Shown here: positions 18,590-42,820 of the stretch, piece after piece
Layout: each line of letters opens with the position of its first letter
Position numbering within the stretch: position 1 is the stretch's first letter
Origin: an uncultured Rubrobacteraceae bacterium
Lineage (GTDB): Bacteria; Actinomycetota; Rubrobacteria; Rubrobacterales; Rubrobacteraceae
Length of the DNA stretch: 64,000 nt
Reading direction: 5' to 3'
Assembly (NCBI GenBank): GCA_902806085.1
Contig: CADCVH010000055.1
Span: 1-64,000 of the forward strand
Notes under the pieces: generated by a model
The model's input: only the letters and a program-made list of their open reading frames with translations
What the model was told of the DNA's origin: nothing
The model's database searches: none
Translations under genes and position numbers: made by a program

Positions 18590-18748
18590 CTAGGCCGCCT
18601 GCGTAATGCGACAGAGATGGTCGAGCGTCCACACCATGAATTCGTCGTACCACCAGCGATTGTCCGCAGCCGCCCTCGTACCACGGCCCGTATCACTGCC
18701 GGGCGGCTCTCCACGACGGTCGAGGACGCTCAGATCGAAATCCTGCAT
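18590..18748 (-). CDS. Possible 52-residue ORF or gene fragment
   Basis: ATG 18748 to TAG 18590. The C-terminal half (NRWWYDEFMVWTLDHLCRI) has strongly protein-like composition for this GC-rich background. No clear ribosome-binding site is present and the preceding codons remain open, so it may be the end of a decayed larger gene. Family not recognised. Confidence 0.25.
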   Translation of the reverse strand: MQDFDLSVLDRRGEPPGSDTGRGTRAAADNRWWYDEFMVWTLDHLCRITQAA

Positions 18749-18779
18749 CCGGGAAGTCCCGCGAAGGCGGGCCGTGACA

Positions 18780-18857
18780 GCGCACGTCGGTCAACGACGG
18801 ACCGCCCAGGCTGGCCACGAATCAGAAGACCGCAGGTTCGAGTCCTGCCGGCGCGCC
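18780..18857 (+). pseudogene. Degenerate tRNA-Arg (ACG) remnant
   Basis: The 3' half is tRNA-like: anticodon loop CCACGAA (18815-18821) with anticodon ACG, 3' stem TCAGA, variable loop, and a perfect T arm GCAGG-TTCGAGT-CCTGC (18832-18848), then an acceptor strand ending GGCGCGCC. Defects: C replaces the invariant U33, the anticodon stem has a G-A mismatch, the acceptor strand lacks one base, and the D arm is about four bases too long. It is therefore a pseudogene or a copy left by integration. tRNA-Arg 3' ends are common attachment sites for tyrosine integrases. Confidence 0.6.
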
Positions 18858-24737: not shown

Positions 24738-25121
24738 CTATCCCTCGGCCCTCTCGCGCTCGGCCTGCTCGCGGCGCTCGCGCCTCCAGGCGTGCTGCTC
24801 CTCGACGGCGATCCTCTCCGCCTCGTCCTCGTCCAGGTCGAAGCGGCTTCCCGTGTGGTCCAGGAGGGCGAGGAACGGGTCGCGCGGGGGCGGCTGTTCC
24901 CCGGCGCCGCGATCCGTGACCAGATCGAAAGCGCGCTGCACCTCGGCCATGTACGTGGGCGTCGGCCCCCCGAGCAGCGAGGCCCCTTCCTTCCGGAAGG
25001 CCAGGTACTCCCTGACGGCCTCCTCCAGCACCTCCTCTACCGGGACGCCGCGACGCTCGGCCAGCAGACGCGCGCCGTCCATGAGCTCGGCGCTGATCTC
25101 GGTCCTCTGCCTCTCTGCCAT
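24738..25121 (-). CDS. Antitoxin of the PIN toxin pair (RHH/CopG-like)
   Basis: A 127-residue protein. Residues 1-45 (RTEISAELMDGARLLAERRGVPVEEVLEEAVREYL) resemble a ribbon-helix-helix DNA-binding domain. The longer C-terminal part is acidic and disordered-looking and would wrap the toxin (FDLDEDEAERIAVEEQHAWRRERREQ). It is directly upstream of the PIN gene in the same operon, which is the usual antitoxin-first order. GGAGGTAGAGAG precedes the ATG. It would neutralise the nuclease and repress the operon, by analogy with VapBC. Confidence 0.75.
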   Translation of the reverse strand: MAERQRTEISAELMDGARLLAERRGVPVEEVLEEAVREYLAFRKEGASLLGGPTPTYMAEVQRAFDLVTDRGAGEQPPPRDPFLALLDHTGSRFDLDEDEAERIAVEEQHAWRRERREQAERERAEG

Positions 25122-25210
25122 CTCTCTACCTCCTTCAGCCCGATTGTCGCACGCCCCGCGGGATTCGGGGAAGGCTTCTTATCCGACGTTGGGCGAATAT
25201 ACCGGAGCGG

Positions 25211-25636
25211 TTAGAAACCTCCTCGGTACTCGTATGTAGGCAGAGCGGGTTTACCCAGGTCCTCGCGAACGGCCTTGAAGAACCCGGTCTTTGCGGCGCC
25301 GTACTCGGCGTTGCTGACCCCTCTTGCCGAACCGCTCGCTGAGCCACGCGCCACGTACCCCACCTTGTCTGCGGCACGCTCTACCGCTTCGGGAGCAATG
25401 ATGCGCACTATGCCGTCGCACCTCCGGTACTCTTGCCACGCGGCGGAGCTCCGGTCCTCCCCCGAAAACAGGAGATCGGTGCTCGCTACGAACTCCGCGT
25501 AAGCCTGACGGCGCTCGTGGTAGTCGCGGTATTCGTCCTCCCTCTTGAACCCGCGCAGGTCCTGCGACCTCTGGAGCAAGTAGTTCAGCAAGCTACCGAT
25601 CACCACGCCGACGAGGCCGAAGATCGCTACGGTCAA
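25211..25636 (-). CDS. Hypothetical membrane-anchored protein
   Basis: A 141-residue protein with one N-terminal membrane helix (VAIFGLVGVVIGSLLNYLLQ, residues 3-22) and a cytoplasmic helical remainder (YHERRQAYAEFVASTDLLF and later helices). The layout GxxGxxxG-LLQ then a charged coiled helix is a common small orphan family in actinobacteria, often in accessory DNA. No function is known. Start GTG or ATG at 25636 places the helix directly at the N-terminus. Confidence 0.6.
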   Translation of the reverse strand: MTVAIFGLVGVVIGSLLNYLLQRSQDLRGFKREDEYRDYHERRQAYAEFVASTDLLFSGEDRSSAAWQEYRRCDGIVRIIAPEAVERAADKVGYVARGSASGSARGVSNAEYGAAKTGFFKAVREDLGKPALPTYEYRGGF

Positions 25637-25712
25637 GGCGACCAGCCCCCGAACACCCTACACCCCCACGGACGGGACAGAGGCCCCTGTGAAGCCGATA
25701 CGGTACGCGGCC

Positions 25713-26066
25713 CTAGCCACCGAGATCGTTCTCCCTCCGGGCCGTGCGTTCGATCAGCGCGACCATCTCATCAGCGGCCCAAGGTTGGGCCCACGAACCC
25801 GGCTCGGGGGGCGGGTTGATGAGAAAGTCGTCGCACCGATCGTCGTCGTGGGCCCGGCGCACCAGGCCGATGACCTCGTCGGTCAGATCGCTGTGACGCA
25901 GGAAGACGTCCAGGGGGGCATCTTGCCCCTCCCTGAAGGCCCTCGCCTTCTCCTCGGAGCTGAAGAACGGGAAGTACCGGGTCCCGGCCAGGTTCATAAG
26001 GAGCGGCCCGGCACCCGCGACTTCCCACCAGTAGATGGTCGGGACCGTAGGGCTTAGATCCTCCAC
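25713..26066 (-). CDS. Hypothetical small protein
   Basis: A 117-residue soluble protein with compact alpha/beta composition (TIYWWEVAG, RYFPFFSSEEKARAFREG, DLTDEVIGLVRRA). The segment FFSSEEKARAF resembles SseB or DUF-type small globular proteins that read as 'value-in-field then helix'. No family can be fixed. It lies on the minus strand between accessory genes. Confidence 0.5.
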   Translation of the reverse strand: MEDLSPTVPTIYWWEVAGAGPLLMNLAGTRYFPFFSSEEKARAFREGQDAPLDVFLRHSDLTDEVIGLVRRAHDDDRCDDFLINPPPEPGSWAQPWAADEMVALIERTARRENDLGG

Positions 26067-26135
26067 TTATGGACTCCTCCGCTCGCCGTTTCTCTTCATC
26101 GTACCCCGGCGTCCCCCGCCGCGGGCACCGAAGCC

Positions 26136-26213
26136 TCAAGGGTTCCCGATCGGGCCGGCCAAGAGCGGCAACAACGCCACCAAGGCCACTACCCCCCAAA
26201 GAGCCTCCGCCAC
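26136..26213 (-). CDS. Possible 25-residue hydrophobic peptide
   Basis: GTG 26213 to TGA 26136 encodes MAEALWGVVALVALLPLL plus seven residues, a single membrane helix. Its start lies inside the end of the preceding small ORF. Very short, so support rests only on composition and tight overlap. Confidence 0.25.
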   Translation of the reverse strand: MAEALWGVVALVALLPLLAGPIGNP

Positions 26214-26317
26214 CAGGGCCGCGTCTCCGGACCCTGCGCGGGCTCCTGCCGTCCTGCTCGCATCCCAGACGCGTCCTGCCCCTCAGGCGCCCGCTCCTGG
26301 CGTTCCTCTCGCTCCAT
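26189..26317 (-). CDS. Possible 42-residue basic/acidic small protein
   Basis: ATG 26317 to TAG 26189. The product is charged, rich in Glu, Arg and Gln, and ends RPWWRRLFGG, an aromatic-basic amphipathic tail that looks membrane-associating. It overlaps a hydrophobic mini-ORF. No family recognised. Confidence 0.35.
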   Translation of the reverse strand: MEREERQERAPEGQDASGMRAGRQEPAQGPETRPWWRRLFGG

Positions 26318-26480
26318 ACGGGGAAGCGTACACGCTAGGCGTAGTCCCCGCCCCCTGGGAGCTCGTCTTGGCCGATCTCTTGCATCCGGAGCGCCGCTGC
26401 CTTTGTTGGCGGGTTGGTCTAGGCGCCTTCCTGCCGAAGCCATAACTTGTAACATTCCCGTGTGCCGTTATGTCAGAAAC
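26318..26480. other. Intergenic stretch before the recombinase operon
   Basis: No gene seen. It becomes AT-rich from about 26440, which introduces the promoter region of the operon at 26628. Confidence 0.4.
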
Positions 26481-26545
26481 CGCATACCTATGCGGCAAAC
26501 ACTGGACAACGACCCGCCGATCTGATACAATGTTGCATAGTAGAC
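26481..26545 (+). promoter_or_regulatory. Promoter and palindromic operator of the recombinase operon
   Basis: TGGACA (26503-26508) and TACAAT (26526-26531) are separated by exactly 17 bases, a near-consensus sigma-70 promoter and the best in the window. Eight bases upstream of the -35 box CGCATA-CC-TATGCG (26481-26494) is a perfect palindrome. A second dyad GTTG...CAAC surrounds the likely +1. Together they suggest a tightly regulated promoter for the four-gene operon beginning at 26628. Confidence 0.6.
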
Positions 26546-26627
26546 AACCCAACGGTGCCATGATAGCGGCCCCGGCGAGAGCGACCACTCCCCCGGAGCC
26601 CGGCCCACAGCCAACAAGGAGGCGACT

Positions 26628-26978
26628 GTGGACAGGACCAGTTTACCCCCGCCCACGACGACGGAACAGGAGGCCGCGAAGGCCGCGCTGCTGGACGCCG
26701 CCAGGGACGCGCTAGAGTGGCTCAGGCGCTTCCAGAGGCACGCCCCCGCCGAGGCCCGGTTCGGCGGAGAGGAGGGGCTGACGAGGAGGCTGTCGTCGGC
26801 GGTGAGGATGTGCTCGTTCGAGGTGCGGGACTGCCCGGAGTGCGACGACGGGTTGGCCTATGCGCCGACGGAGCACCCGATGGAGCGGCCGAGGTCCGTT
26901 CCTTGCCCCTCGTGCGGCGGGACCGGCAGGACGCGGGTCTTCGCCTACGCCAGGCCGAAGGCGAGGCGGGGCCGTTGA
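26628..26978 (+). CDS. Small zinc-ribbon protein, first gene of recombinase operon
   Basis: A 116-residue protein. The N-terminal half is a helix (AAKAALLDAARDALEWLRRFQ). The C-terminal half has CPEC (C69, C72) and CPSCGGTG (C93, C96), a DnaJ-like zinc-ribbon pair separated by 20 residues. GTG start 26628 has AAGGAGG seven bases upstream. Its TGA overlaps the TTG start of the next gene. It probably binds DNA or a protein partner. Not a known recombination directionality factor, although its position before a large serine recombinase makes that worth testing. Confidence 0.75.
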   Translation: MDRTSLPPPTTTEQEAAKAALLDAARDALEWLRRFQRHAPAEARFGGEEGLTRRLSSAVRMCSFEVRDCPECDDGLAYAPTEHPMERPRSVPCPSCGGTGRTRVFAYARPKARRGR

Positions 26979-28174
26979 GGACAGCCGAGGCTTTGCCGAC
27001 GCTACGGATGGGCAGCTACCTCGCCTACGAGGCGCTGCCGGCGGAGGCACGGGACGGCCTGGTGCCGGTGCGCGTGGACCCGATCGAGCCCGTCGTGCCG
27101 CTGACCTACGAGCCGGAAGTCTGCGGGCTCTTGACGCCGGAGCAGTGGATGGTCGGCGAGTGGCCGGAGTACTCGGCGAGTTATTGGCAGATGCTCGACC
27201 GCCTCGGCGCGGGTCGGATAGCCGACGAGCTGGCCGCCATCTCGGAGCGTCACGGCGGCAAGACGATCTGCCTGCTGGACCACGACAGCCCGTGGCGAAG
27301 CCCGTACGGGCATGGCCGGGGCCACGGCGACAGCACCCCGCGCACCGCCTTCGCCGCCTGGTGGGAGCGGTCGGTCGGGGAGCCGGTTCTCGAGCTCCTG
27401 CCCGACGGCACGACCGTCCACCCCGCGGACTTCCCGAAGCGGGTGCAGCCCGTGGTGCCGAAGGACCCGAAGGAGGACCGCCGCTGGCGCGACGCGCCCG
27501 AGTTGCCCTGGCCGCCCACCGAGGAGGACGTTGCGCGCTGGATGGATGCGGTCTACTGGCAGACGGCGCGGACCCCGAACAATCCTCATCAGTACAATCA
27601 CCGCGCATGGGGGCCGGAGCTGCCGTTCTGGCGGGTGGTGATGTGGATCAGGGAGACGGGCGAGACGGAGGTGTGGGGCAACCGCCGGACGTTCAGGTAC
27701 AAGCGGGTCGGGGACTACAAGCTGTGGACAATGGGCCACGCGTTGGCAAGCACGATAATCCTGAACAGGAAAGAATGGGGCGCCGATCCGCAGGACCACG
27801 AGAAGGACGGCCGGGAGAGTACGGACCGGAAGCCAGCCTGGGCGGAGCGGCCAGTCGAGGCGCCGCTGTTCGACCGAGACGGGAGGCCGCTGAGCTTGGT
27901 CGAGAGGATCAACCACGAGCACCGTGCCTGCGCCCTGGCGACCGGCGCCGCCGTCCGGCACGCCGTCCGCTGCGGGGAGCTGCTCGCCGAGGCGAAGGCC
28001 GGCGTGAGGCACGGCGAGTGGCTGGGCTGGCTGCGCGAGAACTTCGCTGGCAGCGCGAGGACCGCGCAGAAGTACATGCGGCTGCACCAGGAGAGGACAA
28101 CCCCACGGACGGCAAATACGCACGCTCAGACGCATTTAGAGACAGGGCAGGAGATCGAAAGAAGATCCGCGTGA
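26975..28174 (+). CDS. Composite protein: DUF488-like N-terminus and DUF3102 C-terminus
   Basis: About 399 residues with three parts. First (about 12-110) is a DUF488-like alpha/beta domain (MGSYLAYEALP, later ELAAISERHGGKTICLLDHD). The middle (about 185-275) has NPHQYNHRAWG, FWRVVMWIRETG and YKLWTMGHALASTIILNR, an orphan family seen with phage-like genes. The end (about 310-370) is DUF3102 (VERINHEHRACALATG, then LLAEAKAGVRHGEWLGWL), a helical domain linked to mobile DNA. TTG 26975 overlaps the previous stop (TTGA); ATG 27008 is the alternative start. The function of the combination is unknown. Confidence 0.65.
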   Translation: MRTAEALPTLRMGSYLAYEALPAEARDGLVPVRVDPIEPVVPLTYEPEVCGLLTPEQWMVGEWPEYSASYWQMLDRLGAGRIADELAAISERHGGKTICLLDHDSPWRSPYGHGRGHGDSTPRTAFAAWWERSVGEPVLELLPDGTTVHPADFPKRVQPVVPKDPKEDRRWRDAPELPWPPTEEDVARWMDAVYWQTARTPNNPHQYNHRAWGPELPFWRVVMWIRETGETEVWGNRRTFRYKRVGDYKLWTMGHALASTIILNRKEWGADPQDHEKDGRESTDRKPAWAERPVEAPLFDRDGRPLSLVERINHEHRACALATGAAVRHAVRCGELLAEAKAGVRHGEWLGWLRENFAGSARTAQKYMRLHQERTTPRTANTHAQTHLETGQEIERRSA

Positions 28175-28665
28175 CGGAGAAGAGGGACGAGGCGGATCAG
28201 GACCGGGCCACCTGCTTCCACGAGGCGGCGCACGCCGTCTTCGCCCTGCGGGTGTGCGGGGGGTGGGTCCGCTACGTGGACGCCGACGAGTACTTCTGCG
28301 CCTCCGGCGTGCCAAACTACGGTGGCGAGGCCGACCGCTTGCGCGAGGCGATGTACACGCTGGCCGGCCCCTTCGCCGAGAGGCTGGACGCCTGGGGCGA
28401 GACGAGGTCCGAGCCCTGGGACGAGCTGGCCTTGCTCCACGAGACCGAGAGCCTCGAACTGGGGAGCGACGTGCACGGCCTGATGACGAGCCTCGAAAGG
28501 GCGGACGATCCCGAGACAGAGTACCGGGCCGCGGTGGAGGAGACCGAGGAGCAGGTGCGCGAGCTGTGGCCGGAGATTACGGCCGTGGCGGAGGCCCTGG
28601 CGAAGCGCCGGAGGCTGGACGGCGAGGAGGTCGAGAGCATCATCAACAGGGAGGAAACGCCGTGA
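28171..28665 (+). CDS. Small HEAAH metalloprotease-like protein
   Basis: A 164-residue protein starting at GTG 28171, which overlaps the previous TGA (GTGA). CFHEAAHAVFAL gives HExxH at residues 17-21. YTLAGPFAERLDA and GSDVHGLM resemble the LGGRAAEE and SND segments that supply the third zinc ligand in the FtsH (M41) peptidase domain. It has no AAA domain and no membrane helix, so it is a free-standing M41-like domain. Could be a protease that cleaves a repressor, as ImmA does, or a non-catalytic fold. Its GTGA stop/start link to the recombinase suggests a role in element mobility. Confidence 0.65.
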   Translation: MTEKRDEADQDRATCFHEAAHAVFALRVCGGWVRYVDADEYFCASGVPNYGGEADRLREAMYTLAGPFAERLDAWGETRSEPWDELALLHETESLELGSDVHGLMTSLERADDPETEYRAAVEETEEQVRELWPEITAVAEALAKRRRLDGEEVESIINREETP

Positions 28666-30368
28666 CCAAGAGGGCCGTGCTGTACGCCAGGGTTAGCAAC
28701 CGCAGCCAGGACGAGCGCGGGCTGTCCATACCGGCACAGTTCGCGGAGCTTGGGGCGTGGTGCGAGGCCAACGGCTACGAGGTGGTCGGCCAGGTTGCCG
28801 ACACGGGCGGCAAGGGCTCCAAGCGCGACGACCTTGAGCGGGCCGGTCTGGACGAGCTCTACGACACCGCCGAGCGCCTGCGGCTCGTCGAGGGCGACGT
28901 GGTCCTCGCGCAGAGCTGGGACCGCTTCGGGGAGAACAACGTGCCAGAGTGGATCGGGCGGCGGTTGGCCTCAGTGTGCGGGGGAAGGCTACGGACGCCG
29001 GACGACCCCAACGAGGGGGACGACGACGGCGCGGACCTACTGAGGCTGGTCGGGCGGTGGAACGCCGGGCGCGAGCGCAGGCTGATGGCCCGCAGGACCC
29101 GCAGCAGAAAGCTGGAGCTGGCGAGGACCGGGCACATAGTCGCCAGCCACACCCCGACCTACGGGTACGCCTACGCCGGGACACACAAGGCCAGGCTCTA
29201 CGAGGTCCACGAGGAGCGCGCCGCCGTCGTGAGGAGGATCTTCGCCGAAGTGGCGGACGGGACCGGAATCCGCACGATCGTTCGGGCGCTCGACGCCGAG
29301 GGCGTCCCCCTGCCGCCGGGCAAGAAGAGGCCAGGGTGGCACGGTTGGAACAGGGAGTTCGTCCGCCACCTGATCCGCAACGACGTCCACCTGCCCCACA
29401 CGGACGACGAGCTCGACGCCCTGGTCGCGTCGGGCGACTTGCGCCCCGAGGTACGGAGCCGCGCCGCTGCCGGCTCCGGGATCTGGTGGTACCGCGGCAA
29501 GGACTACGAGGGCGACGCACACAGGGTCGCGGTGCCGGTCCCCAGCGTCGGCGTGCCGAGGACGACCGTTGAGAGGGCCCGCGGGCGGCTCGCCTCCAAC
29601 CGGCCGGCGTCGTCGGCGGCGGGCCGGTTCTGGCCGCTCTCCCGCGGCATCATGATCTGCGGCGGCTGCGGCCGGAACATGGCGACCCACACCGTCGGCA
29701 AGAAGGACAACGGGAAGGTCCACCGCTACTACCGCTGCCAGAGCACCGGCGACACCGTGAAGGGCACGTGCCCCACCCCCGTGCACGTACCCGCTGAGAA
29801 GGCAGAGGCGGCGGTGTGGGAGTGGATCGTGGACCTCGAGTGCGAGCCGCGGCGGATAGTGTCCCTGCTCGACCGGAGGATCGAGGCCGAACGCCGGCGG
29901 CTGCGGGCGGACCCGGAGAAGGAGGCGCGGGAGCTGCGGCGCCGGATCGACGCCACGGCCGCCCGGCGGGCCAACTACCAGGACCAGCAGGCCGCAGGCC
30001 TGATGACCATAGACGAGCTGCGCGCGCGGCTCGAGGCGCTCGCCGAGGAGCGGGCGGGCCTGGAGCGCCAGGTCGAGGAGTGCGACAGGCTGGGCGAGGG
30101 CCTGCTGGAACTGGAAGAACTGAGAGAGTACTATGCGGCGGCGGCCGGGCCAGAGGGGTGGATGATGAGGAACGCGGTCTCCGACGCCACCGAGGTCCGG
30201 CGCATGAGGATGCTCAAGGAGACCGGCGGGCCGGACCAGAGGCGCCGCTACGAGGCGCTGGGGCTGACGGCGACGGCCGTGGCCCACGACACACTGGAGA
30301 TCACAGGGATCTTCGGGGTGGGCGGTGTTGACATCTTGACAACGTCGCGAGGACCAGGTGCCCGGTGA
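28662..30368 (+). CDS. Large serine recombinase (integrase)
   Basis: A 568-residue recombinase starting at GTG 28662 (GTGA overlap). The resolvase domain opens AVLYARVSNRSQ with catalytic S12, then SIPAQ and QSWDRFGENN. The Recombinase domain has GYAYAGTHKARLYEV and IRTIVRALDAEGVP. A zinc ribbon (CGGCGRNMATH... C...C) and a coiled coil (about residues 415-490, REL..RIDATAARRANY) follow. These are the parts of phiC31/Bxb1-like integrases. The last codons (after DILTT) read into the broken pilB gene on the opposite strand, so the target gene supplies the present C-terminus and stop codon. Confidence 0.88.
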   Translation: MTKRAVLYARVSNRSQDERGLSIPAQFAELGAWCEANGYEVVGQVADTGGKGSKRDDLERAGLDELYDTAERLRLVEGDVVLAQSWDRFGENNVPEWIGRRLASVCGGRLRTPDDPNEGDDDGADLLRLVGRWNAGRERRLMARRTRSRKLELARTGHIVASHTPTYGYAYAGTHKARLYEVHEERAAVVRRIFAEVADGTGIRTIVRALDAEGVPLPPGKKRPGWHGWNREFVRHLIRNDVHLPHTDDELDALVASGDLRPEVRSRAAAGSGIWWYRGKDYEGDAHRVAVPVPSVGVPRTTVERARGRLASNRPASSAAGRFWPLSRGIMICGGCGRNMATHTVGKKDNGKVHRYYRCQSTGDTVKGTCPTPVHVPAEKAEAAVWEWIVDLECEPRRIVSLLDRRIEAERRRLRADPEKEARELRRRIDATAARRANYQDQQAAGLMTIDELRARLEALAEERAGLERQVEECDRLGEGLLELEELREYYAAAAGPEGWMMRNAVSDATEVRRMRMLKETGGPDQRRRYEALGLTATAVAHDTLEITGIFGVGGVDILTTSRGPGAR

Positions 30369-31608
30369 GGGCGGCCTCAACGCTTGTCTTGGCGGTCTCC
30401 CGGTCGCGGATCTCGCCTATCATCACGACGTCGGGGTCGGCCCTGAGGATGCTTCTGAGGCCCGAGGCGAACGTCAGGCCGACCTTGGGGTTTACCTGCA
30501 CCTGGTTGACGCCGGGCATCCGGTACTCCACCGGGTCCTCGACGGTGATGATGTTCTTCTGCGGGGAGTTGAGCTCTTCGAGGGTCGCGTACAGCGTCGT
30601 GGACTTGCCCGAGCCCGTGGGCCCGGTAACGAGCACGGTGCCGTAGGGGCGCGTGTAGACCTCCTCGTATTCTTGGAGTGTCTGGGGGTCGAACCCTAAA
30701 GCGCCGAGGTCGGCCTGCACGTTCGCGGTGTCGAGGAGGCGCAGCACCACCTTCTCGCCAAAGACGGTCGGCAAAATAGCGGCGCGCAGGTCGAGCTTCT
30801 GGGTGCCGAGCCGGACGGAGAACCGTCCGTCCTGGGGCAGGCGCCGCTCCGCTATGTCGAGGTCGGCGAGGATCTTTAGCCGCGCGAGCATGCCGCTCTG
30901 GAGCTTGGGCGGCACGCGCATTATCTTGCGCAGCACGCCGTCGACGCGCATGCGCACCGTGAGCCCGTCGGCGCGGGGCTCGAAGTGGATGTCGGAGGCG
31001 CCCTCGCCGACCGCCCGCTGCAGGATCGAGCCCACGAGCCGGATGACGGGCGCGTTCTCGGCGTTCGTGTGCTCCCCGAGCTCCACCACCCCAAAGTCGC
31101 CTTCGGGGGATTCGCCCGCCGCGTCTTCGAGCATCTTGGTCACGTCCCCGCCGAGGGCGTAGACCCTGTTGAAGACCCGCTGTATCTCGTCTTCGACCGC
31201 GACCACAGGCGTGATGGGGTACCCCGAGATCATCCCGAGATCCTCGATGGCGTAGAAGTTGGTGGGGTCGCTCATCGCGACGACGAGCCGCCCGTTCTCG
31301 AGGCGCAGGGGCAGCATGTTGTGCTTGCGCAGCAGCTTGCTCTCCGCGACCGCCGTTACGCTTCGGTCCACGTCTCTTTCGGTGACCTCCACGTACTCCA
31401 GGCGAAGCTTCTTCGCGAGGGCCATGGCAAGGTCGGCCGGCGACACGTAGCCCGCGGAGAGCAGGATCCGGCCGAGCTGGCGCCCGTCGTGGCGCTGCAC
31501 GGAGAGCGCCTCGTCGAGCTGGGAGCGGGTGATCTTGCCCTGGGCGAGCAGGGTCTCCCCGACCTTGTCCCCCCCAAACCCAGCCTTTTTTTCGCCGACA
31601 CCGCCCAC
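30301..31608 (-). pseudogene. pilB: Type IV pilus assembly ATPase PilB/GspE, 3' end lost
   Basis: A GspE/PilB ATPase whose N-terminal MshE-like domain (VGETLLAQGKITRSQLDEAL) and most of the ATPase are intact. Walker A (GPTGSGKSTT), Asp box (ITVEDPVEY) and Walker B (LRADPDVVMIGEIRD) are present. After TGHLVLATL the reading becomes SRCQHRPPRRSL and stops, so the second half of the His box, the C-terminal 130 or so residues and the tetracysteine zinc site are missing. GTG 31608 is my preferred start; the frame is open further upstream. It should be unable to power pilus assembly. It follows the prepilin peptidase gene in the same direction. Confidence 0.85.
30328..30345. other. Probable attachment/insertion junction in pilB
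   Basis: TTGACA occurs twice eight bases apart (30328-30333 and 30336-30341). At 30340 the conserved pilB reading (LVLATL, then normally HTN) stops and unrelated sequence begins. This is the predicted crossover position of the serine recombinase. The partner junction was not found in the window. Confidence 0.55.
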
Positions 31609-31897
31609 CCTGGTGTTTTCGGCCCCTTTCCCGATTTTGTTTATCGTCCCTACTCCTCGCCGGGGCGCCCGCAAAAGGCGCAAGCAACGGTCCACGATTT
31701 CGCCGTAAGCCGAGTATGCTGCGGGCCGGGCAGCCCATATGCCACGCGGCCATTCCCGCCGGGCCACCCGGCCCTTCACGCCTCAGAAGGCGGCATCGTG
31801 CGTTGAAACCCCGCCACCGCTGACGTAATCCGGTGTGTTTGCCCCGCGGTCAACCGGCGCGCCCTACTTTGGGAGCCTCCGCGCGCCGCCGAGGGTC

Positions 31898-32647
31898 TTA
31901 GGCGATGCCGGTCAGGTTCAGGTAGAGGCCCCAGAGCTGGGGACCGGCGAACAGCGCGACGAGCCCCCCGAACGCCATGAACGTCCCGAAGGGAAGGGCG
32001 CTTCCGCGCTCGAGCCTGCCCACGGCCACCAGCGCCGCGTAGGCGACGGTCCCGGAGAGCGCCCCGACAAAGACCGCCATCGCGGCGTACGGGCCGAGGA
32101 ACAGGCCGAGCATCCCGCCCATCTTGACGTCCCCCATGCCCATACCGCCGGGGTAGACCGCGGCCAACCCGAAGAGGAAGCCCGCAACCGCCAACGCGGC
32201 CAGGGGATACGTCCACCACGCCGCCGGCCCGCCCCAAAAGGAGAGCACGAGCCCGGCGAGGGAGGCAGGACCCACTATCGCGTTGGGCAGAAGCCGGTGC
32301 TCGAGGTCCGTGACGGCCAGCGCGGCCAACGCCGAGATCAGCGCCAGCGAGAGCGCGAGCTGGCCCGCGCCTTCGAACCGGAAGGCCGCGGCCCCGAAAA
32401 GGAGCCCCGTGAGCCCCTCCACGAGCGGGTAGCGCACCGGGATAGCCTCCGCGCAGTGACGGCAACGTCCCCTTAGCAGCGCGTAGGAGACCAGGGGCAC
32501 GTTGTCCCTGCGGAGGATGGGCTTCCCGCAGCCGGGGCAACGCGAGGCCGGCCGAACCGCCGACAGGCCGGCCGGGACCCGGTGCACGACCACGTTCAAG
32601 AAGCTACCCACGACGAGGCCAAGCAAGATCGTCCAGACAACTATCAC
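31898..32647 (-). CDS. pilD: Prepilin peptidase (A24 family)
   Basis: A 249-residue integral membrane aspartic protease. The N-terminal methylase-like region has two CxxC pairs (CPGCGKPI and CRHC), and the peptidase domain has the two catalytic aspartates in AVTDLEHRLLPN and GMGMGDVKMGG. About seven membrane helices are visible. It removes the leader from type IV prepilins and methylates the new N-terminus. The neighbouring pilB is broken, so its substrates here may be unused or encoded elsewhere. Confidence 0.92.
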   Translation of the reverse strand: MIVVWTILLGLVVGSFLNVVVHRVPAGLSAVRPASRCPGCGKPILRRDNVPLVSYALLRGRCRHCAEAIPVRYPLVEGLTGLLFGAAAFRFEGAGQLALSLALISALAALAVTDLEHRLLPNAIVGPASLAGLVLSFWGGPAAWWTYPLAALAVAGFLFGLAAVYPGGMGMGDVKMGGMLGLFLGPYAAMAVFVGALSGTVAYAALVAVGRLERGSALPFGTFMAFGGLVALFAGPQLWGLYLNLTGIA

Positions 32648-32776
32648 GCCCTATCCTCCTCTGTGGTCCGAGCCGCCGCCCCCAACGGTTTCGACGCGGA
32701 CGCACCGGCGCTTTAAGCGGGAAGGGTAGGCGCGACCATCCCAACCGGCCGCGCGTTGAGACCTGCGGGGCCGATC

Positions 32777-33889
32777 CTAGAGTCCCGCCTCCTCTTTCGC
32801 CTGCAGGAACTCGTCGTAGTCGTTGGTGAAGAAGTGCTTTTCGCCGCCGGCATCGAGCACGTAGTACAGGTGGTTCGTCTGCGCCGGGTCGATGGCGGCC
32901 TGCAGGGACTGGAGGCTCGGGCTGCAGATGGGACCGGGGGGGAGGCCCTTGTTCTCGTAAGTATTATAGGGGGATTGGATCTCGAGGTCGGCGTATGAGA
33001 GGTTCTCCTTGGGCCGCTTGAGGGCGTACTGGATGGTGGCGTCTATCTGGAGGGGCATGTCCTCGCGGATCCTGTTGTAGATGACCGAGGCGATCACGGG
33101 CCGCTCCTCCGCGTTGGCCGACTCCTTCTCGATAAGCGAGGCCACGGTCACGAGCTCGTGCTCGGTGAGGCCGAGGCGCTCTTTGGCGCCCTTGATGTCT
33201 AGTCCCTCCGTCTCCAGGAGGTACTGTTCAAGCAGCCGGTCCACGACCTGCGGCGCCGTGACGCCCTTCTCGAAGTCGTAGCGCCGCGGGAAGAGGTAGC
33301 CTTCGGTGGTCTCTACCTGGTCGCTCTGGAGAAAGGCGTAGCCGTAGTCGGAGCTGCGGGCGGCGGACTCGAAGTTCGCCGCGGGTATGCCGGTGCCGTC
33401 GGCGACCGTCCGGGCCGTCTCCGAGAGGGTCAGGCCCTCGGGGACGGTGACGGCGATGGTCGGTACGGCCTCCCCGGCTGTGAGCTTCGCGAGGATGTCG
33501 TCGGTGTCCGCGCCTGGCTGGAAGGTGTAACGGCCGGTCTTGACGGTCGTGTCCCGCCCGTCCACCCGGGCCTCGACCTTGAAGACGAACGCGCTGCCGA
33601 TGACCCCGGCCTTCTCCAGCTTGGTGGCTACCGTCGAGAGCGTGTCCCCCTTGGCGACCTCTACTTTTACCGGGCCGTCGGGCTCGGCCGGGCCGCCCGC
33701 GAAGGCCGAGGCGTAGATCAGGTACACCGCCCCCAGCACCCCGGCGAGTAGCAGGACGCCGAGGACGGCCGGCCCCAAGCTGGAGCGCCGTTTCCTTCGG
33801 CGTCCCCCGTCCTTGGCCGAACGCAACGCGTCGAGCCGGGCTTCGAGGTCGGCCCGGTCTTCGCGCTCGCTCTTGTCGTGGCGCCTCAG
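32777..33889 (-). CDS. mltG: Endolytic transglycosylase MltG (YceG-like)
   Basis: A 370-residue membrane-anchored enzyme that cuts nascent peptidoglycan glycan strands. Basic N-terminus, one membrane helix (LGPAVLGVLLLAGVLGAVYLIYA), a LysM-like segment (VKVEVAKGDTLSTVATKLEKAGV), then the YceG domain with ASLIEKESANAEERPVIASV (catalytic Glu), DATIQYAL, and SPYNTYENKGLPPGPICSPS. The start is CTG 33889: it overlaps the ruvX TGA as CTGA and has a perfect AGGAGG eight bases ahead; no ATG, GTG or TTG precedes the helix except a weaker TTG about 25 codons in. Operon with alaS and ruvX. Confidence 0.9.
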   Translation of the reverse strand: MRRHDKSEREDRADLEARLDALRSAKDGGRRRKRRSSLGPAVLGVLLLAGVLGAVYLIYASAFAGGPAEPDGPVKVEVAKGDTLSTVATKLEKAGVIGSAFVFKVEARVDGRDTTVKTGRYTFQPGADTDDILAKLTAGEAVPTIAVTVPEGLTLSETARTVADGTGIPAANFESAARSSDYGYAFLQSDQVETTEGYLFPRRYDFEKGVTAPQVVDRLLEQYLLETEGLDIKGAKERLGLTEHELVTVASLIEKESANAEERPVIASVIYNRIREDMPLQIDATIQYALKRPKENLSYADLEIQSPYNTYENKGLPPGPICSPSLQSLQAAIDPAQTNHLYYVLDAGGEKHFFTNDYDEFLQAKEEAGL

Positions 33890-34314
33890 AGGTCCCCCCT
33901 CCTCGCCAGGTACTCTTGCAGTATGCGGGCCGCCGCCAGGTGGTCCACCGGCGCGCGTCGTCCCTTCCTTTTCCCCGGCTTCCTGCCGGCGCCCGCGACG
34001 GCCATGCGGGTCGTCAGGCGCTCGTCCCACTCCACGAACCGCACCAGGGGAAACTCGCGTCTTAGCCCGGCAATTGTATCCAAAACCCCGCGCGCCTGGA
34101 AACCGACCTCCCCGGACATCGTCTTTGGCACCCCGACAACGACCTCGCGGACGGCCTGCTCGGCGAAGAGCGTGTGGAGGTAGTCGGTGAGGTTCTCGCT
34201 GGGTACGACGTCGAGGGGGGTGGCTATTAGGCGGTCGGGGTCGGAGATGGCGACGCCGGTGCGGACGGTCCCGAGGTCCAGCGCCGCTACGCGTCCCGGG
34301 CCGGTTACGGGCAG
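33886..34314 (-). CDS. ruvX: Putative pre-16S rRNA nuclease RuvX/YqgF
   Basis: A 142-residue RNase H-like protein. ALDLGTVRTGVAISD near the N-terminus carries the first catalytic Asp, VVVGVPKTMSGEVG the second strand, and FVEWDERLTTRMA the third acidic site; it ends with a basic RRAPVDHLAAARILQEYL helix. It probably processes the 5' end of 16S rRNA. It follows the alaS stop in the same frame with no ATG, GTG or TTG before the first strand; CTG 34314 is the only near-cognate candidate. Its stop overlaps the mltG start. Confidence 0.85.
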   Translation of the reverse strand: MPVTGPGRVAALDLGTVRTGVAISDPDRLIATPLDVVPSENLTDYLHTLFAEQAVREVVVGVPKTMSGEVGFQARGVLDTIAGLRREFPLVRFVEWDERLTTRMAVAGAGRKPGKRKGRRAPVDHLAAARILQEYLARRGDL

Positions 34315-34317
34315 GGC

Positions 34318-36960
34318 CTAACCCGCGCCGGAGAGGCTGCGGGTCAGGATCTCGCGCGCCCGCGCCAGGGCGTCGGGGATGGCCTCGAGGTTGCCCCCGC
34401 CCGCCTGGGCCATCGTCGCCCCGCCGCCCCCCCCGCCCCCGAGGACGCCGGAGACCTCCCTGACGATGTCGCCGGCCCGGACTTTTCCGGAGACCTCGGG
34501 GTGAAGGTTCGCGACGAGCACGGCCTTGCCGTCGAGATCGGCGGCGAGGACCACGGCCGACGGTCCGCCCAGGCGGTTCTTGACGTCGTCGGAGATCTGG
34601 CGCAGCCCCTTCACGTCGGCGGCGACGACCCGCCCCGTGACGACCCTGGCGCCGTCCATCTTCTCCGCGCCCTCGACGAGCGCCCCCACCTCGCCGAGGC
34701 CCTGCTGGAGGGCCTCCTGGCGCGCGGCCTCGCGGCCCTGCCTGGCCTCGTTGCGCAGGCTGTCCACGGCGGCCGGAAGCTCCTCCACCGGCACCCGGAG
34801 CGCGCCGGAGATCCCCTCCGCCGTCTCCGCCGTCTCGGTGAGGTAGAAGAGCGCCTCGCGGCCCGTGATGACCTCGATGCGGTAGAGGTCCGCGCCGTGC
34901 TTCCGGTTCGAGACGACCTTGAACGCCCCGACCTCCGCGGTGCCGCGCACGTGGGTACCGCCGCACAGCTCGCGGGAGAACCCGTCCACCTCGACCACGC
35001 GCACGAGGTCCCCGTACTTCTCGCCGAAGAGCATCATCGCGCCGAGGTTCCGGGCCTCCTCAAGGGTGGTCGTGTAGTAGCGGACGGGCTGGTTCTCCGT
35101 GATCTTGTACAGGCACTGCTCCTGAATACGCCGGACCTGCTCCTCCGTGACCTTCCCGCCGTAGCGGTAGTCGAAGCGCAGCCTGTCGGGCCCGACGTAG
35201 CTGCCGGCCTGCACGACTTCTTGCCCGAGCTCGGCCCGAAGCGCCCAGTGCAGGATGTGCGTGGCGGTGTGGTTCGCCTCGACCTGCTGGCGCCGGACCC
35301 GGTTTATGGAGGCGGTAACCGCGTCGCCCACGGCGAATCCGTCCCGCTCCACCCTGGCCCTCAGCACCTGGTAGCCGCCCGCCGGCACGACGTCGAAGAC
35401 CTCCAACTGGCCGTCCTCGGAGGTCACCCACCCCTCGTCAGCGACCTGCCCGCCGCCCGTCGCGTAGAACGGGTTCTCCGCCAGCACCACCGAGACCTCC
35501 CCCGGGGCGTCGGGCGAGTCCTCAAAGGCGACGATCCTGGTCTCTATCTGCTCCCGCTCGTACCCGACGAAGCGGCTCCTGATCTCCTGCTCCCCGAAAG
35601 CTGCTACCACGCGGTCGTAGCCGCGGGCGGCCTCCCTGGCGCGCCTTCTTTGCGCGTCCATCGCGGCCTCGTACCCCGCCTCGTCCAGGGAGACGCCGCG
35701 TTCGACGAGAACCTCGCGCGTGACCTCGACCGGGAAGCCGTAGGTGTCGTGCAGGGTGAAGGCGACCTCGCCGGGGAAGTTGCCCCCCTCCAGGCGCGAG
35801 AGCTCGGACTCCAGAAGCTCCTTGCCTGACTCGAAGATCTCGACGAACCTCGCCGCCTCGTCGGTCACGATACGGCGGATGTCCTCCCTGGCCTCTCCAA
35901 GCTCCCCGTAAAAGCCGTCCATGTAGTCCACGACGCCCCCGGCGACCGCGGCGAGCTGCCCCGGGCTCATGCCGAGGCGCGAGTAGGCCTGCAGGGCGGA
36001 GCGCCGGATCATGCGCCGCAGCACGTATTCCCGGCGCTGGTTGCCCGGCCTGACGCCGTCCGCGATCAGGAACGCCACGCCGCGGGTATGGTCGGCGACG
36101 ATTCGCAAGGCCCGGTCTGTTGCCCCCGAGTCGCCGACGGAGATGCCGGTGAATTCCTTTATCTTCTCGAAGGCCGGGGCGTAGAGGTCGGTCTGGTAAA
36201 CGGACTTGACGCCCTGGACGACGGCGGTGGTGCGCTCGAGACCGAGCCCGGTGTCTATCCCGGTCTTGGCGAGGGGGACGAGGGTACCGTCCTTGCGTTG
36301 CTCGTACTGGTTGAAGACGAGGTTCCAGATCTCCAGGAAGCGCGGGTCGCCCTCGTCGCCGCCTGGCCCGTACTTCGGGTCGGCGAGGGGGTCGCCGAGG
36401 CCGTACTCCTCGCCGTAGTCGTAGTAGATCTCCGAGCTCGGGCCGCACGGGCCCGAATCGCCCGGGGGGCCCCACCAGTTCTCGCTTTTCGGGAGGCCGA
36501 AGATCTTCTCCTCGGGGACGCCTACGGACTTCCAGAACTCCTTGGCCTCCACGTCCTCCGGGGCGTCCTCGTCGCCCTCGAAGATCGTGACCCAGAGCCG
36601 CTCGGGCGCCAGCCCGAGCTCGGCCGTCAGGAACTCATAGGCGTACTCGACTGCCTCCCTCTTGAAGTAGTCCCCGAACGAGAAGTTGCCCATCATCTCG
36701 AAGAAGGTCAGGTGGCTCGGATCGCCCACTTCTTCGATATCCTGCGTACGGAAGCACTTCTGGGCGCTCACGGCGCGCAGGGTGGGCGGCTTCTCCTCCC
36801 CGGTAAAGAAGGTGATGAACTGCTGCATCCCGGCCGTGGTCAGGAGGACCGTAGGGTCGTTGTACGGGATCAGGGAGGAGCTCGGGTAGAACCTGTGGCC
36901 CCGCTCCCCGAAGAAGTCCAGAAACCGCTGTCTGATCTCGTAGCTTTGCATGGGCTCCAT
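34318..36960 (-). CDS. alaS: Alanyl-tRNA synthetase
   Basis: 880 residues, normal length. The class II aminoacylation domain starts SYEIRQRFLDFFGERGH, with FEMMGNFSFGDYFK and the GLGLERTTAV motif 3. The editing domain has NHTATHILHWALR and ELCGGTHVRGTAEVG, which give the zinc/editing histidines and cysteine. The C-Ala/DHHA1 tail has a GGGGGGGATMAQAGG glycine run typical of AlaS. It charges tRNA-Ala in the cytosol. First gene of the alaS-ruvX-mltG operon, just after the sigma factor gene. Confidence 0.97.
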   Translation of the reverse strand: MEPMQSYEIRQRFLDFFGERGHRFYPSSSLIPYNDPTVLLTTAGMQQFITFFTGEEKPPTLRAVSAQKCFRTQDIEEVGDPSHLTFFEMMGNFSFGDYFKREAVEYAYEFLTAELGLAPERLWVTIFEGDEDAPEDVEAKEFWKSVGVPEEKIFGLPKSENWWGPPGDSGPCGPSSEIYYDYGEEYGLGDPLADPKYGPGGDEGDPRFLEIWNLVFNQYEQRKDGTLVPLAKTGIDTGLGLERTTAVVQGVKSVYQTDLYAPAFEKIKEFTGISVGDSGATDRALRIVADHTRGVAFLIADGVRPGNQRREYVLRRMIRRSALQAYSRLGMSPGQLAAVAGGVVDYMDGFYGELGEAREDIRRIVTDEAARFVEIFESGKELLESELSRLEGGNFPGEVAFTLHDTYGFPVEVTREVLVERGVSLDEAGYEAAMDAQRRRAREAARGYDRVVAAFGEQEIRSRFVGYEREQIETRIVAFEDSPDAPGEVSVVLAENPFYATGGGQVADEGWVTSEDGQLEVFDVVPAGGYQVLRARVERDGFAVGDAVTASINRVRRQQVEANHTATHILHWALRAELGQEVVQAGSYVGPDRLRFDYRYGGKVTEEQVRRIQEQCLYKITENQPVRYYTTTLEEARNLGAMMLFGEKYGDLVRVVEVDGFSRELCGGTHVRGTAEVGAFKVVSNRKHGADLYRIEVITGREALFYLTETAETAEGISGALRVPVEELPAAVDSLRNEARQGREAARQEALQQGLGEVGALVEGAEKMDGARVVTGRVVAADVKGLRQISDDVKNRLGGPSAVVLAADLDGKAVLVANLHPEVSGKVRAGDIVREVSGVLGGGGGGGATMAQAGGGNLEAIPDALARAREILTRSLSGAG

Positions 36961-36976
36961 CCCGCTCTGTGGCGTC

Positions 36977-37750
36977 CTAGTTCTCGTTTTCCATCTCGTC
37001 GAGCTCCTCGCGCAGGTCCTGTAGAGCGCGCCTGAGTAGCCGCGAGACGTGCATCTGGCTCACCCCGATGCGGTCCGCTATCTCGGTCTGCGTCTTGCCC
37101 TCGTTGAAGCGCAGCTTGAGGATCTGCTGCTGCTGGTCTCTCAGACCGTCGATGGCCCGCTGCAGGAGTATCCTGTCCTCAAGGCCGTCTATCGGGGAGT
37201 TGTCGTCGGCCTGCAGGTCCATGATGGTGTCGCCCTCCCGCTCGTCCGGGCTCACCGGCGCGTCGAGGCTCGCGGTGTTGTAGGCCCGCCCGAGGGTGAG
37301 GGCCTCTGCGACGCTCTCGACGTCGGCGTCGAGCACGTCCGCAAGCTCGCGGATCGTGGGTGAGCGGCCGGTCTTTACGGTCTGGTCCCGGACGGCCTCC
37401 TTGGCCGACTGGCGCAGCTCCTGCAGGCCGCGCGGCACCCGCATCGCCCACCCCTTGTCGCGGAAGTAGCGCTTGATCTCGCCCAGGATGTTCGGCGTGG
37501 CGTAGGTGGAGAACTCTATCCTCCTGTCCACGTCGAACCTGTCGACCGCCTTGATGAGCCCCACGGAGGCGACCTGCACGAGGTCGTCCACCGGCTCCCC
37601 CCGCCCCGCGAACTTGCGCGCCAGAAACTCGGCGAGGGGCAACTGCTCCTGGATCACCTTCTCCCGCGCGGCCCGGTCGCCGAGCTTATGATACCGCGTC
37701 AGGAGCCGCCTCGTGCGCGCCTTGTCCGGCCGCCGGTAGCGGCGGCTCAC
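36977..37750 (-). CDS. RNA polymerase sigma factor, SigB/SigF type
   Basis: 257 residues from GTG 37750. Regions 2 to 4 are complete: DDLVQVASVGLIKAVDRFD and IEFSTYATPNILGEIKRYFRD (region 2, core and -10 recognition), VPRGLQELR and a region 3 helix, then LKLRFNEGKTQTEIADRIGVSQMHVSRLLRRAL (region 4 HTH). This is the group 3 stress/sporulation type, normally held by an anti-sigma kinase. GTG 37750 overlaps the stop of the upstream RsbW-like gene (GTGA), which I prefer over GTG 37777. The pair is probably a partner-switching module. Confidence 0.9.
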   Translation of the reverse strand: MSRRYRRPDKARTRRLLTRYHKLGDRAAREKVIQEQLPLAEFLARKFAGRGEPVDDLVQVASVGLIKAVDRFDVDRRIEFSTYATPNILGEIKRYFRDKGWAMRVPRGLQELRQSAKEAVRDQTVKTGRSPTIRELADVLDADVESVAEALTLGRAYNTASLDAPVSPDEREGDTIMDLQADDNSPIDGLEDRILLQRAIDGLRDQQQQILKLRFNEGKTQTEIADRIGVSQMHVSRLLRRALQDLREELDEMENEN

Positions 37751-38034
37751 GACACCAGCTCGACCACTGTCCGCCAACGCGACCCGTCCGCACCGCTCTC
37801 GTCCGGCTCCTCCACCTGGGCGACCACCCCGTCGTCCGCGAGCGCGAACCTGAAGCGCGTCGGCGCGTCCACGGCGTGGAAGTCCTCCAGCAGCGCGACC
37901 GCCTCGTCGAGGCCGCCCACGCCAACTTTGGCCCGCGCCGCCATGCCGGCCAGCACCAACCCCACGCAGGAGCGAAGCCGCACGTCGGGGGGAAGGGTGA
38001 GGTAAGCGTATTCGGCGGCGCGGTCTGCGGTCAA
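37747..38034 (-). CDS. RsbW-like protein lacking ATP-binding motifs
   Basis: A 95-residue protein starting at TTG 38034, with AGGAGGAGA upstream. The LPPDVRLRSCVGLVLAGMAARAKVGVGGLDEAVALLEDF stretch aligns with the first two helices of the GHKL anti-sigma kinases RsbW/SpoIIAB, but the N box (ENAVxH) and glycine-rich G1/G2 motifs are absent and the remainder is short. It ends in the GTGA overlap with the sigma factor gene. It may be a degenerate anti-sigma factor that binds without phosphorylating, or an unrelated small partner. The position makes a sigma-binding role likely. Confidence 0.6.
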   Translation of the reverse strand: MTADRAAEYAYLTLPPDVRLRSCVGLVLAGMAARAKVGVGGLDEAVALLEDFHAVDAPTRFRFALADDGVVAQVEEPDESGADGSRWRTVVELVS

Positions 38035-38062
38035 ACTCTCTCCTCCTGGGTCATGGTCCTCC

Positions 38063-38395
38063 CTAACCGTTCCGCGACGCGGACGGCCCCGTGGACGGCC
38101 CCGTCGTCGGCTGCTCCGGGATCGGCTGCGGCGCGGGCGGTGTTTCGGGAGGGGCGGTGGCGGCACGCCCGGCGTGCGCCCTGTCGTGCTGCTCCAGGTC
38201 GCGCAGGATCTCCTCCCGCCGCGTCACGGAGGCCTCGCGGGCCGCGGAGACGGCGTTCTGGTACCGGCGACGGACGTTTACGGGCAGGTCCCTGGCGGCC
38301 TTCGGCAGGTTCTTGCGGGCCTCCTCGCTCGTGGCGTAGATCGTGCCGGCCACCCCGAGGACCACGCCCGCCGCCACCTTGCCCCAGTTGTTCAT
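38063..38395 (-). CDS. YtxH-domain small membrane protein
   Basis: A 110-residue protein: one membrane helix (KVAAGVVLGVAGTIYAT, residues 5-21) and then a soluble, helical, charged part (RKNLPKAARDLPVNVRRRYQNAVSAAREAS) with a proline-rich C-terminus. YtxH proteins are stress-related in Firmicutes. ATG 38395 overlaps the DUF948 stop by four bases (ATGA), so the pair is co-translated, as is usual for YtxH and DUF948 proteins. Confidence 0.75.
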   Translation of the reverse strand: MNNWGKVAAGVVLGVAGTIYATSEEARKNLPKAARDLPVNVRRRYQNAVSAAREASVTRREEILRDLEQHDRAHAGRAATAPPETPPAPQPIPEQPTTGPSTGPSASRNG

Positions 38396-38775
38396 TCGCC
38401 CTCGCCTTCCGGCCGCTTCTCCCCGCCGAGGAACGTGCTTATGCCACGGGAGAGGCCGGCGGTCGCCGAGGAGACCCGGATCACGCCGCCCCGCACGCCA
38501 CGGGTTATGACGGTCGTCGTCTGGTCTAGCTCGTCGGTCATGCCGGCCACGTCGCCCACGGCCTCGTCGAGTTGGGAGAGCTGGCTGTTGATGTTGTCCA
38601 CGGTCACGTGGGTCTTGCCTATCAGGGGCACCACCTGCTCGGAGACGTCCTTTATGCTCTTCTCCGTCGTCGCGAAGATGCGGGCGAGCCGCAAGAACGC
38701 CCACGCCAGCAGGAAGAAGGCGACCGCGACGCCCGCAAAGAGCAGCCCCTTCATCAGTTCCACGAAAAGGTCCAA
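38392..38775 (-). CDS. DUF948-domain membrane protein
   Basis: A 127-residue protein with an N-terminal membrane helix (LLFAGVAVAFFLLAWAFLRL) followed by a long helical segment (IGKTHVTVDNINSQLSQLDEAVGDVAGMTDELDQTTTVI) characteristic of DUF948. Heptad-like repeats suggest a coiled coil. These proteins sit at the membrane, often beside YtxH proteins and general-stress genes. It overlaps the YtxH gene start by four bases and is upstream of the sigma factor module. Confidence 0.8.
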   Translation of the reverse strand: MDLFVELMKGLLFAGVAVAFFLLAWAFLRLARIFATTEKSIKDVSEQVVPLIGKTHVTVDNINSQLSQLDEAVGDVAGMTDELDQTTTVITRGVRGGVIRVSSATAGLSRGISTFLGGEKRPEGEGE

Positions 38776-38848
38776 AACCTACCGCACCTCCGTCAAAGAG
38801 CCCCGAAAGTCCGCATTATAACCGCGATGGCACCGTTTTCGCACGTCC

Positions 38849-40315
38849 CTACTCGCCACCGGGCGCGACGACGCCGCCGCCGACGACCCGCCCGCCGTCC
38901 GCGCTGTAGAAGACGGCCGACTGGCCCGCCGCGACACCCATGACGGGCTCTTGGAGGCGCGCGATCCAGCCCCCCTCGCCGTCGCCCTCTACCTCGCAGG
39001 CCACCGGCCCGCCGTTGTACCGGACCTGCACCGAGCTCGCCTCCTCGGGCGGCAAGAACCAGTTGAGGTCGCGGACCCGCACCTCGCGAACCTCCAGGTC
39101 CCTTCGCCGCCCTACGACGACCTGCTTGCTTTTCGGGCGCACCTCGGTCACGTAGAGCGGGGTCGGCGCGGAGACGCCTATGCCGCGTCGCTGGCCGACG
39201 GTGAAGTCGACGACGCCGGCGTGCCGGCCGAGCACAACCCCCTCCCGGTCCACCACCTCCCCGGGCTCCGCGGAGACCGTCTTGCGGACGAAGCGCCGGT
39301 AGTCGCCGTCCGGGATAAAGCAGATGTCCTGGCTCTCCGGGGTGTAGGCGACGGCGAGGCCCCGGTCCTCGGCGATCCGGCGCACCTCGCTCTTGCGGTA
39401 GTCGCCGAGGGGAAAGACGGCCCGGGCGAGCAACTCCTTCGGGATCGGCCACAGCACGTAGGTCTGGTCCTTGCTCTCGTCCACCGGCCGCGCGAGGCTC
39501 GGGCCCTCGGCGACCCGCGCGTAGTGCCCGGTCGCCACGTGCCTGAAGCCGAGCTCGTCCGCGAGAAAGGCCGCAGCGTGGAACTTCACGTGCGCGTTGC
39601 ACGCCACGCAGGGGTTCGGGGTGCGCCCCTTCTCGTAGGACCCCACGAAGTCCTGCATGACCCGCTTGTTGAAGAGCTCCTTGAGGTTCAGCGTGAAGTG
39701 CGGCAGGCCCATCCTGTGGGCCGTGTCCCGCGCGAAGAGCACGGTGTCAGGCGAGCAGCAAGACCGGCTGCCCCTCTCGCCGTCGTGCAGCCGGAAGGTC
39801 ACGGCCGCGACGTCTTGGCCGGCCTCCTTGAGCAGCAGCGCCGTCACGGCGGAGTCAACCCCCCCGCTCATCGCCGCCACCACGCCTCCCTCTCCGGCCC
39901 CACCGCCGCCGACGTACCCGTCCACGAGCCCGGCGGCCGCGGTCCGGCTCCAGTGGTCCTCGAAGGCCTTGTGCAGGGCGTCGAGCACGAGCGTCAGCGC
40001 GTGCCCCTTGCCCTGCGGCAACGGCCCGCCGAGCGCCTCCTCGACGTCGGCCTTAGACACCCGCGCAGCTTCGAGCAGGGGTTTGCCGTGCACCAGCTCG
40101 GCCAGCGCTGAGCCCGCGGCCACGCAGGCCGCGCAGCCGAAGACCTCGTACCGTGCCTCCTCGACCTCGTTCTCCCGTATCTGAACGGAGAAGACGGCGA
40201 CGTCGCCGCAGGCGGCGTCCCCCGACTCGCCCCTCCCGGACGGTTCTTCCAGATGCCCCGCGTGGCGGGGGCGGACCAGATGGTCTATGACCTTCGGATT
40301 GTAGGCTTCGGCCAT
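38849..40315 (-). CDS. mnmA: Fusion of IscU/NifU-like scaffold and tRNA 2-thiouridylase MnmA
   Basis: 488 residues in two modules. Residues 1-125 are IscU/NifU_N (YNPKVIDHLVRPRHAGHLEEP), with C36 in ACGDV and C61/C64 in FGCAAC; the third IscU cysteine position is Ala106. From about 143 comes complete MnmA: SGGVDSA PP-loop (150-156), NPCVACN with C236 and DICFIP with C332 as the catalytic pair, and the C-terminal beta barrel. MnmA adds sulfur to U34 of tRNA(Glu, Gln, Lys). The adjacent cysteine desulfurase would supply sulfur, and the scaffold domain may receive it directly. Confidence 0.92.
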   Translation of the reverse strand: MAEAYNPKVIDHLVRPRHAGHLEEPSGRGESGDAACGDVAVFSVQIRENEVEEARYEVFGCAACVAAGSALAELVHGKPLLEAARVSKADVEEALGGPLPQGKGHALTLVLDALHKAFEDHWSRTAAAGLVDGYVGGGGAGEGGVVAAMSGGVDSAVTALLLKEAGQDVAAVTFRLHDGERGSRSCCSPDTVLFARDTAHRMGLPHFTLNLKELFNKRVMQDFVGSYEKGRTPNPCVACNAHVKFHAAAFLADELGFRHVATGHYARVAEGPSLARPVDESKDQTYVLWPIPKELLARAVFPLGDYRKSEVRRIAEDRGLAVAYTPESQDICFIPDGDYRRFVRKTVSAEPGEVVDREGVVLGRHAGVVDFTVGQRRGIGVSAPTPLYVTEVRPKSKQVVVGRRRDLEVREVRVRDLNWFLPPEEASSVQVRYNGGPVACEVEGDGEGGWIARLQEPVMGVAAGQSAVFYSADGGRVVGGGVVAPGGE

Positions 40316-40394
40316 CAGCTACGGGCCTTCGGCTTCGCTGTTTCGGTGGTGCGGCTGCGGTTCACGAAAAAACTCTTCTCCTTGTGGCTTATGG

Positions 40395-41555: not shown

Positions 41556-41614
41556 GGCCCGGCTAGTGTATCTCACGGGGGCGAAATTTCAGCCCGCAAG
41601 CGGGGCCGCGCGGC

Positions 41615-42574: not shown

Positions 42575-42820
42575 GCCGAGCCGCGCGAAGAAGCCTCTTA
42601 CGCCGTTCTCCCGGATAAACCTCTCCCCCGCAGCCCACCGAAAATTTCCCTCCGGCGGCGGGTGCCCGGCCGGATGTGGGCTAACTTAGCACGGGCGCCA
42701 AACGCACGCAACGGCACCGCGGCGGGCCCCGGCGGGCTTCGGGAGCGGGCTTTTTCGGCTACCATTCGGGGACGTCGCGCCCGGGGAGTTCGGGCGCGCA
42801 AGCGAGACGTCGGGAGGCGC

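Follow-up and report, generated by a model that had tools for sequence, protein, structure and literature searches.

A large serine recombinase gene ends within the pilus ATPase gene pilB in a Rubrobacteraceae draft genome

The junction between pilB and a recombinase gene

The DNA analysed here (the window) comprises bases 1-64000 of contig C55 (89,891 bp), from a draft assembly of 4.41 Mb in 133 contigs. On its minus strand, the pilus extension ATPase gene pilB is broken at the point where a plus-strand gene for a large serine recombinase (LSR) comes to its end. The features below refer also to contig C40 (39,449 bp) of the same assembly, which starts with 127 bases identical to window positions 30473-30347.

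26717..28174, plus strand: open reading frame (ORF) with a C-terminal DUF3102 domain (Pfam, 4.1e-10), a probable gene of the element
28171..28665, plus strand: small open frame upstream of the LSR gene, with a HEAAHAVF motif, a probable gene of the element
28662..30368, plus strand: LSR gene (568 aa), the last 22 bases of which, stop codon included, are pilB DNA
30326..30346, minus strand: putative element-side arm (P') of attL, GACGTTGTCAAGATGTCAACA, whose first bases resemble the pilB arm CACCTTGCAC
30347..30360, minus strand: end of the putative pilB-side half of attL, CACCTGGTCCTCGC, the same in C40 up to 30347 and different beyond
30347..30473, minus strand: 127-bp stretch common to the window and the start of C40, an apparent fork of the assembly graph between the LSR and the intact 3' end of pilB
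30347..31779, minus strand: 5' part of pilB, encoding the MshEN domain, Walker A, Walker B and the start of the His box
31898..32647, minus strand: prepilin peptidase-like ORF, named from the character of its sequence without a family search; host locus context adjoining pilB, outside the element

The initial annotation had described pilB as intact through Walker B and broken within the His box, with the recombinase frame crossing the break. Both descriptions hold: the PilB match ends after TGHLVLATL, at window 30346/30347, and the LSR takes its final codons and stop from pilB DNA, 22 bases past the junction. The interval it had given, 30301-30368, is the overlap of the LSR and pilB ORFs, whereas the junction proper is 30346/30347. 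The pilB open frame (31779..30301, minus strand) runs beyond the junction to 30301 with foreign residues (SRCQHRPPRRSL), and the true start codon may lie inside this ORF. In ORF numbering, intact PilB has 627 residues. After the interruption 480 of these remain, and the missing 147 include the tetracysteine region, the C-terminal domain and the HTN of the His box. In the window, profile matches to pilB cover positions 2-417 of 564 in TIGR02538 (PilB) and 3-243 of 370 in Pfam T2SSE and then stop.

The gene at 28662..30368 is a large serine recombinase, with Resolvase catalytic (5.7e-14), Recombinase (2.6e-8) and zinc ribbon (Zn_ribbon_recom, 8.9e-13) domains, all above the Pfam cut-off, and it matches the PHROG 95 integrase (6.9e-58). 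Its full-length ORF retains Arg10, Ser12 and the DR motif, and it departs from several positions conserved in 20 relatives. Among these, position 91, which by our reading of the DRFxR motif would be the equivalent of the catalytic Arg71, is Glu, where 19 of the 20 aligned relatives have Arg. Since LSRs at G023:C42 and G004:C675 have the same DR[FY]GE motif as the window LSR, Glu91 may mark a subgroup rather than decay. The closest homologues within the class are 37-40% identical. None above about 28% identity was found in plasmids and phages, and no close homologue was confirmed in GTDB genome contigs or IMG/VR. In a tree, the window LSR grouped weakly (84/92) with the G023 LSR and with an LSR remnant from G022 that is described below.

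The LSR module occupies about 26.7-30.35 kb. Part of the product of 26717..28174 resembles DUF488-type proteins whose genes lie just upstream of LSRs in two relatives (33-34% identity, G003:C174 and G004:C201), and DUF488 was found in the G003 homologue; the ORF at 28171..28665 matched nothing in Pfam or PADLOC. To the left of the module lie 26 kb of mostly metabolic and regulatory genes, together with genes for a PIN-domain protein and a tyrosine recombinase and a fragment of a restriction enzyme, in an order not conserved in six relatives. Of the ORFs in 7-30 kb for which Pfam or PHROG scans were run, none was a structural, packaging or conjugation gene, and a search for the element arm in IMG/VR found none. 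At window 10194-12203, an N-terminal fragment of a type IIG restriction enzyme (MmeI_N) is followed by a tyrosine recombinase gene. A 115-bp stretch at 18725-18839 is 100% identical to the end of a contig from a different species (G003:C15), far above background similarity. On the other side of pilB, the product of 31898..32647 shares 65% identity with that of a gene close to the pil locus in the near-complete congener G006.

An intact pilB junction in the same assembly

The initial annotation had also suggested looking for the missing 3' end of pilB elsewhere in the genome. It is present, on C40, but as an intact empty site and not as attR. Past the shared bases, C40 continues as a normal pilB (TLHTNNAP, the tetracysteine region and a stop), followed by pilT and pilC, and this pilB-pilT-pilC order is that of G006. 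The C40 part matches TIGR02538 over 374-561, so that with the window part the full PilB profile is covered; taken singly, each part falls below the curated cut-off, as would be expected for half a protein.

Identity between window and C40 is complete over 30473-30347 (127/127 bases), after which the window reads GACGTTGTC and C40 reads CACCTTGCAC, with divergence from 30346. Read further, C40 continues as CACCTTGCACACCAACAACGCC and the window as GACGTTGTCAAGATGTCAACA into the LSR. Judged from this alignment, the crossover is at or just upstream of 30347. The exact 14-mer CACCTGGTCCTCGC occurs at only two places genome-wide, window 30347..30360 and C40.

In a control comparison, an overlap of exactly 127 bp recurred between contigs C115 and C98. 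Since the two overlaps are equally long, 127 is probably the k-mer of the assembly graph, in which case the pilB 5' region would have two outgoing paths, one to the LSR and one to the intact 3' end. That the fork is due to a second copy of pilB was rejected, as the pilB 5' region is shared by no other contig; this region has one copy in the genome, and C40 is the sole contig overlapping the insertion point. With an empty intact site present, the assembly holds both the interrupted and the intact state, and the empty site (attB, C40) is identical to the site beside the recombinase gene (attL, window) up to the crossover. The simplest reading is a mixed population, in which some chromosomes carry the LSR (attL) and some the empty site (attB).

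Neither attR (the element joined to the pilB 3' end) nor attP (the circle junction) was found in the deposited 133-contig draft assembly, though the intact pilB junction is present there. Whole-genome searches with window 25000-44900 and the start of C40 revealed no third contig at pilB. Since a simple insertion needs attR, either the deposited genome lacks the contig with attR or a rearrangement has altered that side. If the genome is a MAG, the missing contig could be an unbinned or unassembled piece.

Recombinase genes that end in pilus genes of other genomes

A search of 39 genomes of the class gave 63 further LSR loci, two of which end inside type IV pilus genes. In a Rubrobacter MAG, which belongs to another genus, a diverged 303-aa LSR remnant lacking the catalytic domain ends in pilB (G022:C234). 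The break falls at the same pilB codon as in the window: PilB ends TGHLVLTTFSQD, and the T2SSE match covers 4-243, against 3-243 in the window. The interrupted gene is a second paralogue (52% identical), with an intact pilB elsewhere in that genome; a separate 3' fragment of the broken copy was looked for there and not found. In a congener (G003:C174), a different, full LSR ends inside pilC, where it replaces the last ~12 residues (YLPMFKIFELVG in C40). Other LSRs of the survey terminate within or next to genes of other kinds, so pilus genes make up a part of the targets, not the whole. Since a related integrase remnant lies at the same spot in a relative, pilB looks like a recurrent landing site for LSRs.

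A pattern search of 84,980 genomes for junctions resembling the pilB attL returned three matches, one of which was the known G022:C234. The other two, in Neobacillus, had no PilB or LSR similarity and were rejected as chance. We do not claim that the element arms of the window and G022 are alike beyond their first bases, as 696 of 2000 shuffles did as well in a local alignment.

Several other loci were recorded in passing. At L114 (G023:C42, 249-2264), the LSR frame continues in the same sense into the apparent C-terminal half of an ABC transporter ATPase (THDMDEAEELCDRVGIIMDGKII), which suggests, from the residues of this tail, an insertion at another conserved ATPase motif; the short tail had no Pfam call. 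The window's own genome contains three more LSR genes (G000:C115:59170-60651, C101:49246-50691 and C83:25898-27379). A small gene lying 1.2 kb past the C115 LSR is found again, 95% identical, at a distance of 1.6 kb from the C101 LSR. In one further genome, two near-identical LSRs (L126 and L143, G039:C179 and C181) each end against a protein frame containing TGREGFTGELWRSIEDIYREVLDHPFLRGLTDGTLPEE, and apparently hit the same target gene twice.

Origin of the junction and comparison with known systems

A model that we consider likely is that an LSR element inserted into an attB site in pilB, and that the sequenced population is mixed. The LSR would have carried out site-specific recombination between the attP of the element and an attB in the pilB DNA that encodes the His-box motif TGHLVLATLHTN, and the attL around window 30326-30360 would be the result. 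Chromosomes bearing the insertion would encode a PilB truncated after residue 480 of 627 and would lose pilus extension, while part of the population would keep the empty site and an intact pilB-pilT-pilC operon. Since, PilT apart, the genome yielded no PilB-type ATPase other than the one at this locus, we infer that insertion-bearing cells have lost their pili.

LSR integrase genes end next to their att site, and the window LSR ends at the pilB break in just this way, which supports insertion. Chance also does not account for the junction: the LSR terminates within 22 bp of where a conserved motif is interrupted, the missing half is present on another contig of the assembly, and an independent locus, in another genus, is broken at the same point. 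Further support comes from the strong enrichment of DNA competence genes among LSR targets as a class, as reported by Durrant et al. 2022 (PMC10083194). The model is weakened by the absence of attR and attP from the assembly and by Glu91 and the other unusual residues at conserved positions. With the 3' end found and intact pilB genes in the relatives compared, the initial proposal of an LSR insertion that uses pilB as its attachment site is well supported.

The same LSR origin is compatible with a different later history, in which the insertion is fixed and decaying: the element is immobile, the pilB 3' side has been lost or rearranged, and the pilB on C40 comes from a near-identical strain in the sample. 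We regard this as possible but clearly less probable. It would account for the lack of both attR and attP and for the unusual catalytic-domain residues, and the G022 LSR, with its catalytic domain gone and no separate pilB 3' fragment found, fits such a course. However, the window LSR is full length and has Arg10 and Ser12, the 127 identical bp mean that the two strains would have to be very close, and a missing attR is weak evidence in a 133-contig draft.

It is improbable that no discrete element inserted and that the junction arose by a larger rearrangement, a deletion or inversion between the pilB attB and a resident attP. This would explain the missing attR and the 26 kb of mostly ordinary metabolic and regulatory genes on the left, where the scanned genes included none of phage or conjugation type. 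However, cells without the rearrangement would then retain a P-P' junction from the resident attP, and the search revealed no such junction; moreover, the gene order on the left is not conserved across six relatives, which is what an island would show. An assembly chimera is more improbable still. Only one side of the insertion is seen, in a draft assembly, but the LSR gene ends at the join, the G022 pilB breaks at the same codon, and the element and pilB arms are similar at the crossover.

Insertion into pilB in a mixed population thus remains our preferred explanation. Going beyond it, Rubrobacteraceae LSR elements might use pilus operon genes (the pilB His box, the end of pilC) as dedicated reversible sites, switching pili and perhaps DNA uptake. 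This is unlikely, and a reversible pilus switch is at present possible but unsupported. If true, integration and exact excision would turn type IV pili off and on within a population. Because the intact and interrupted forms occur in one assembly, excision is directly testable.

Gene-intervening elements excised during development are known, such as skin in sigK and gin in gerE (PMC5595907). They resemble the pilB case in that a coding gene is split by an element that carries a recombinase, and the joined gene is also seen intact; the pilB case differs in that no attP circle was found and there is no sign of programmed excision or a developmental link. The LSRs of Durrant et al. 2022 (PMC10083194) share the domain layout of the window LSR and an att site beside the recombinase gene, whereas the window LSR has no close homologue, the best being 37-40% identical within the class. 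Insertions of prophages and other elements into comYC, comFA, comK and comM are known from many species (PMC4774983). In those insertions, as in pilB, a site-specific recombinase targets a coding sequence for DNA uptake or pili, at the same site across species and with inactivation; here the target is the pilus extension ATPase, and a link to transformation would be by analogy. LSR insertion into pilus or competence genes is already known. A literature search for pilB with serine recombinases or attachment sites returned no pilB insertion, and within the literature searched the repeated use of pilB as a site appears to be new; it would extend a conflict of a known kind to a further site and lineage. 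The locus adds a pilus extension motor gene, hit at the same codon in two genera, to the attachment sites of LSRs, in a deep actinobacterial lineage where, within that literature, conflict between mobile elements and pili or DNA uptake had not been described.
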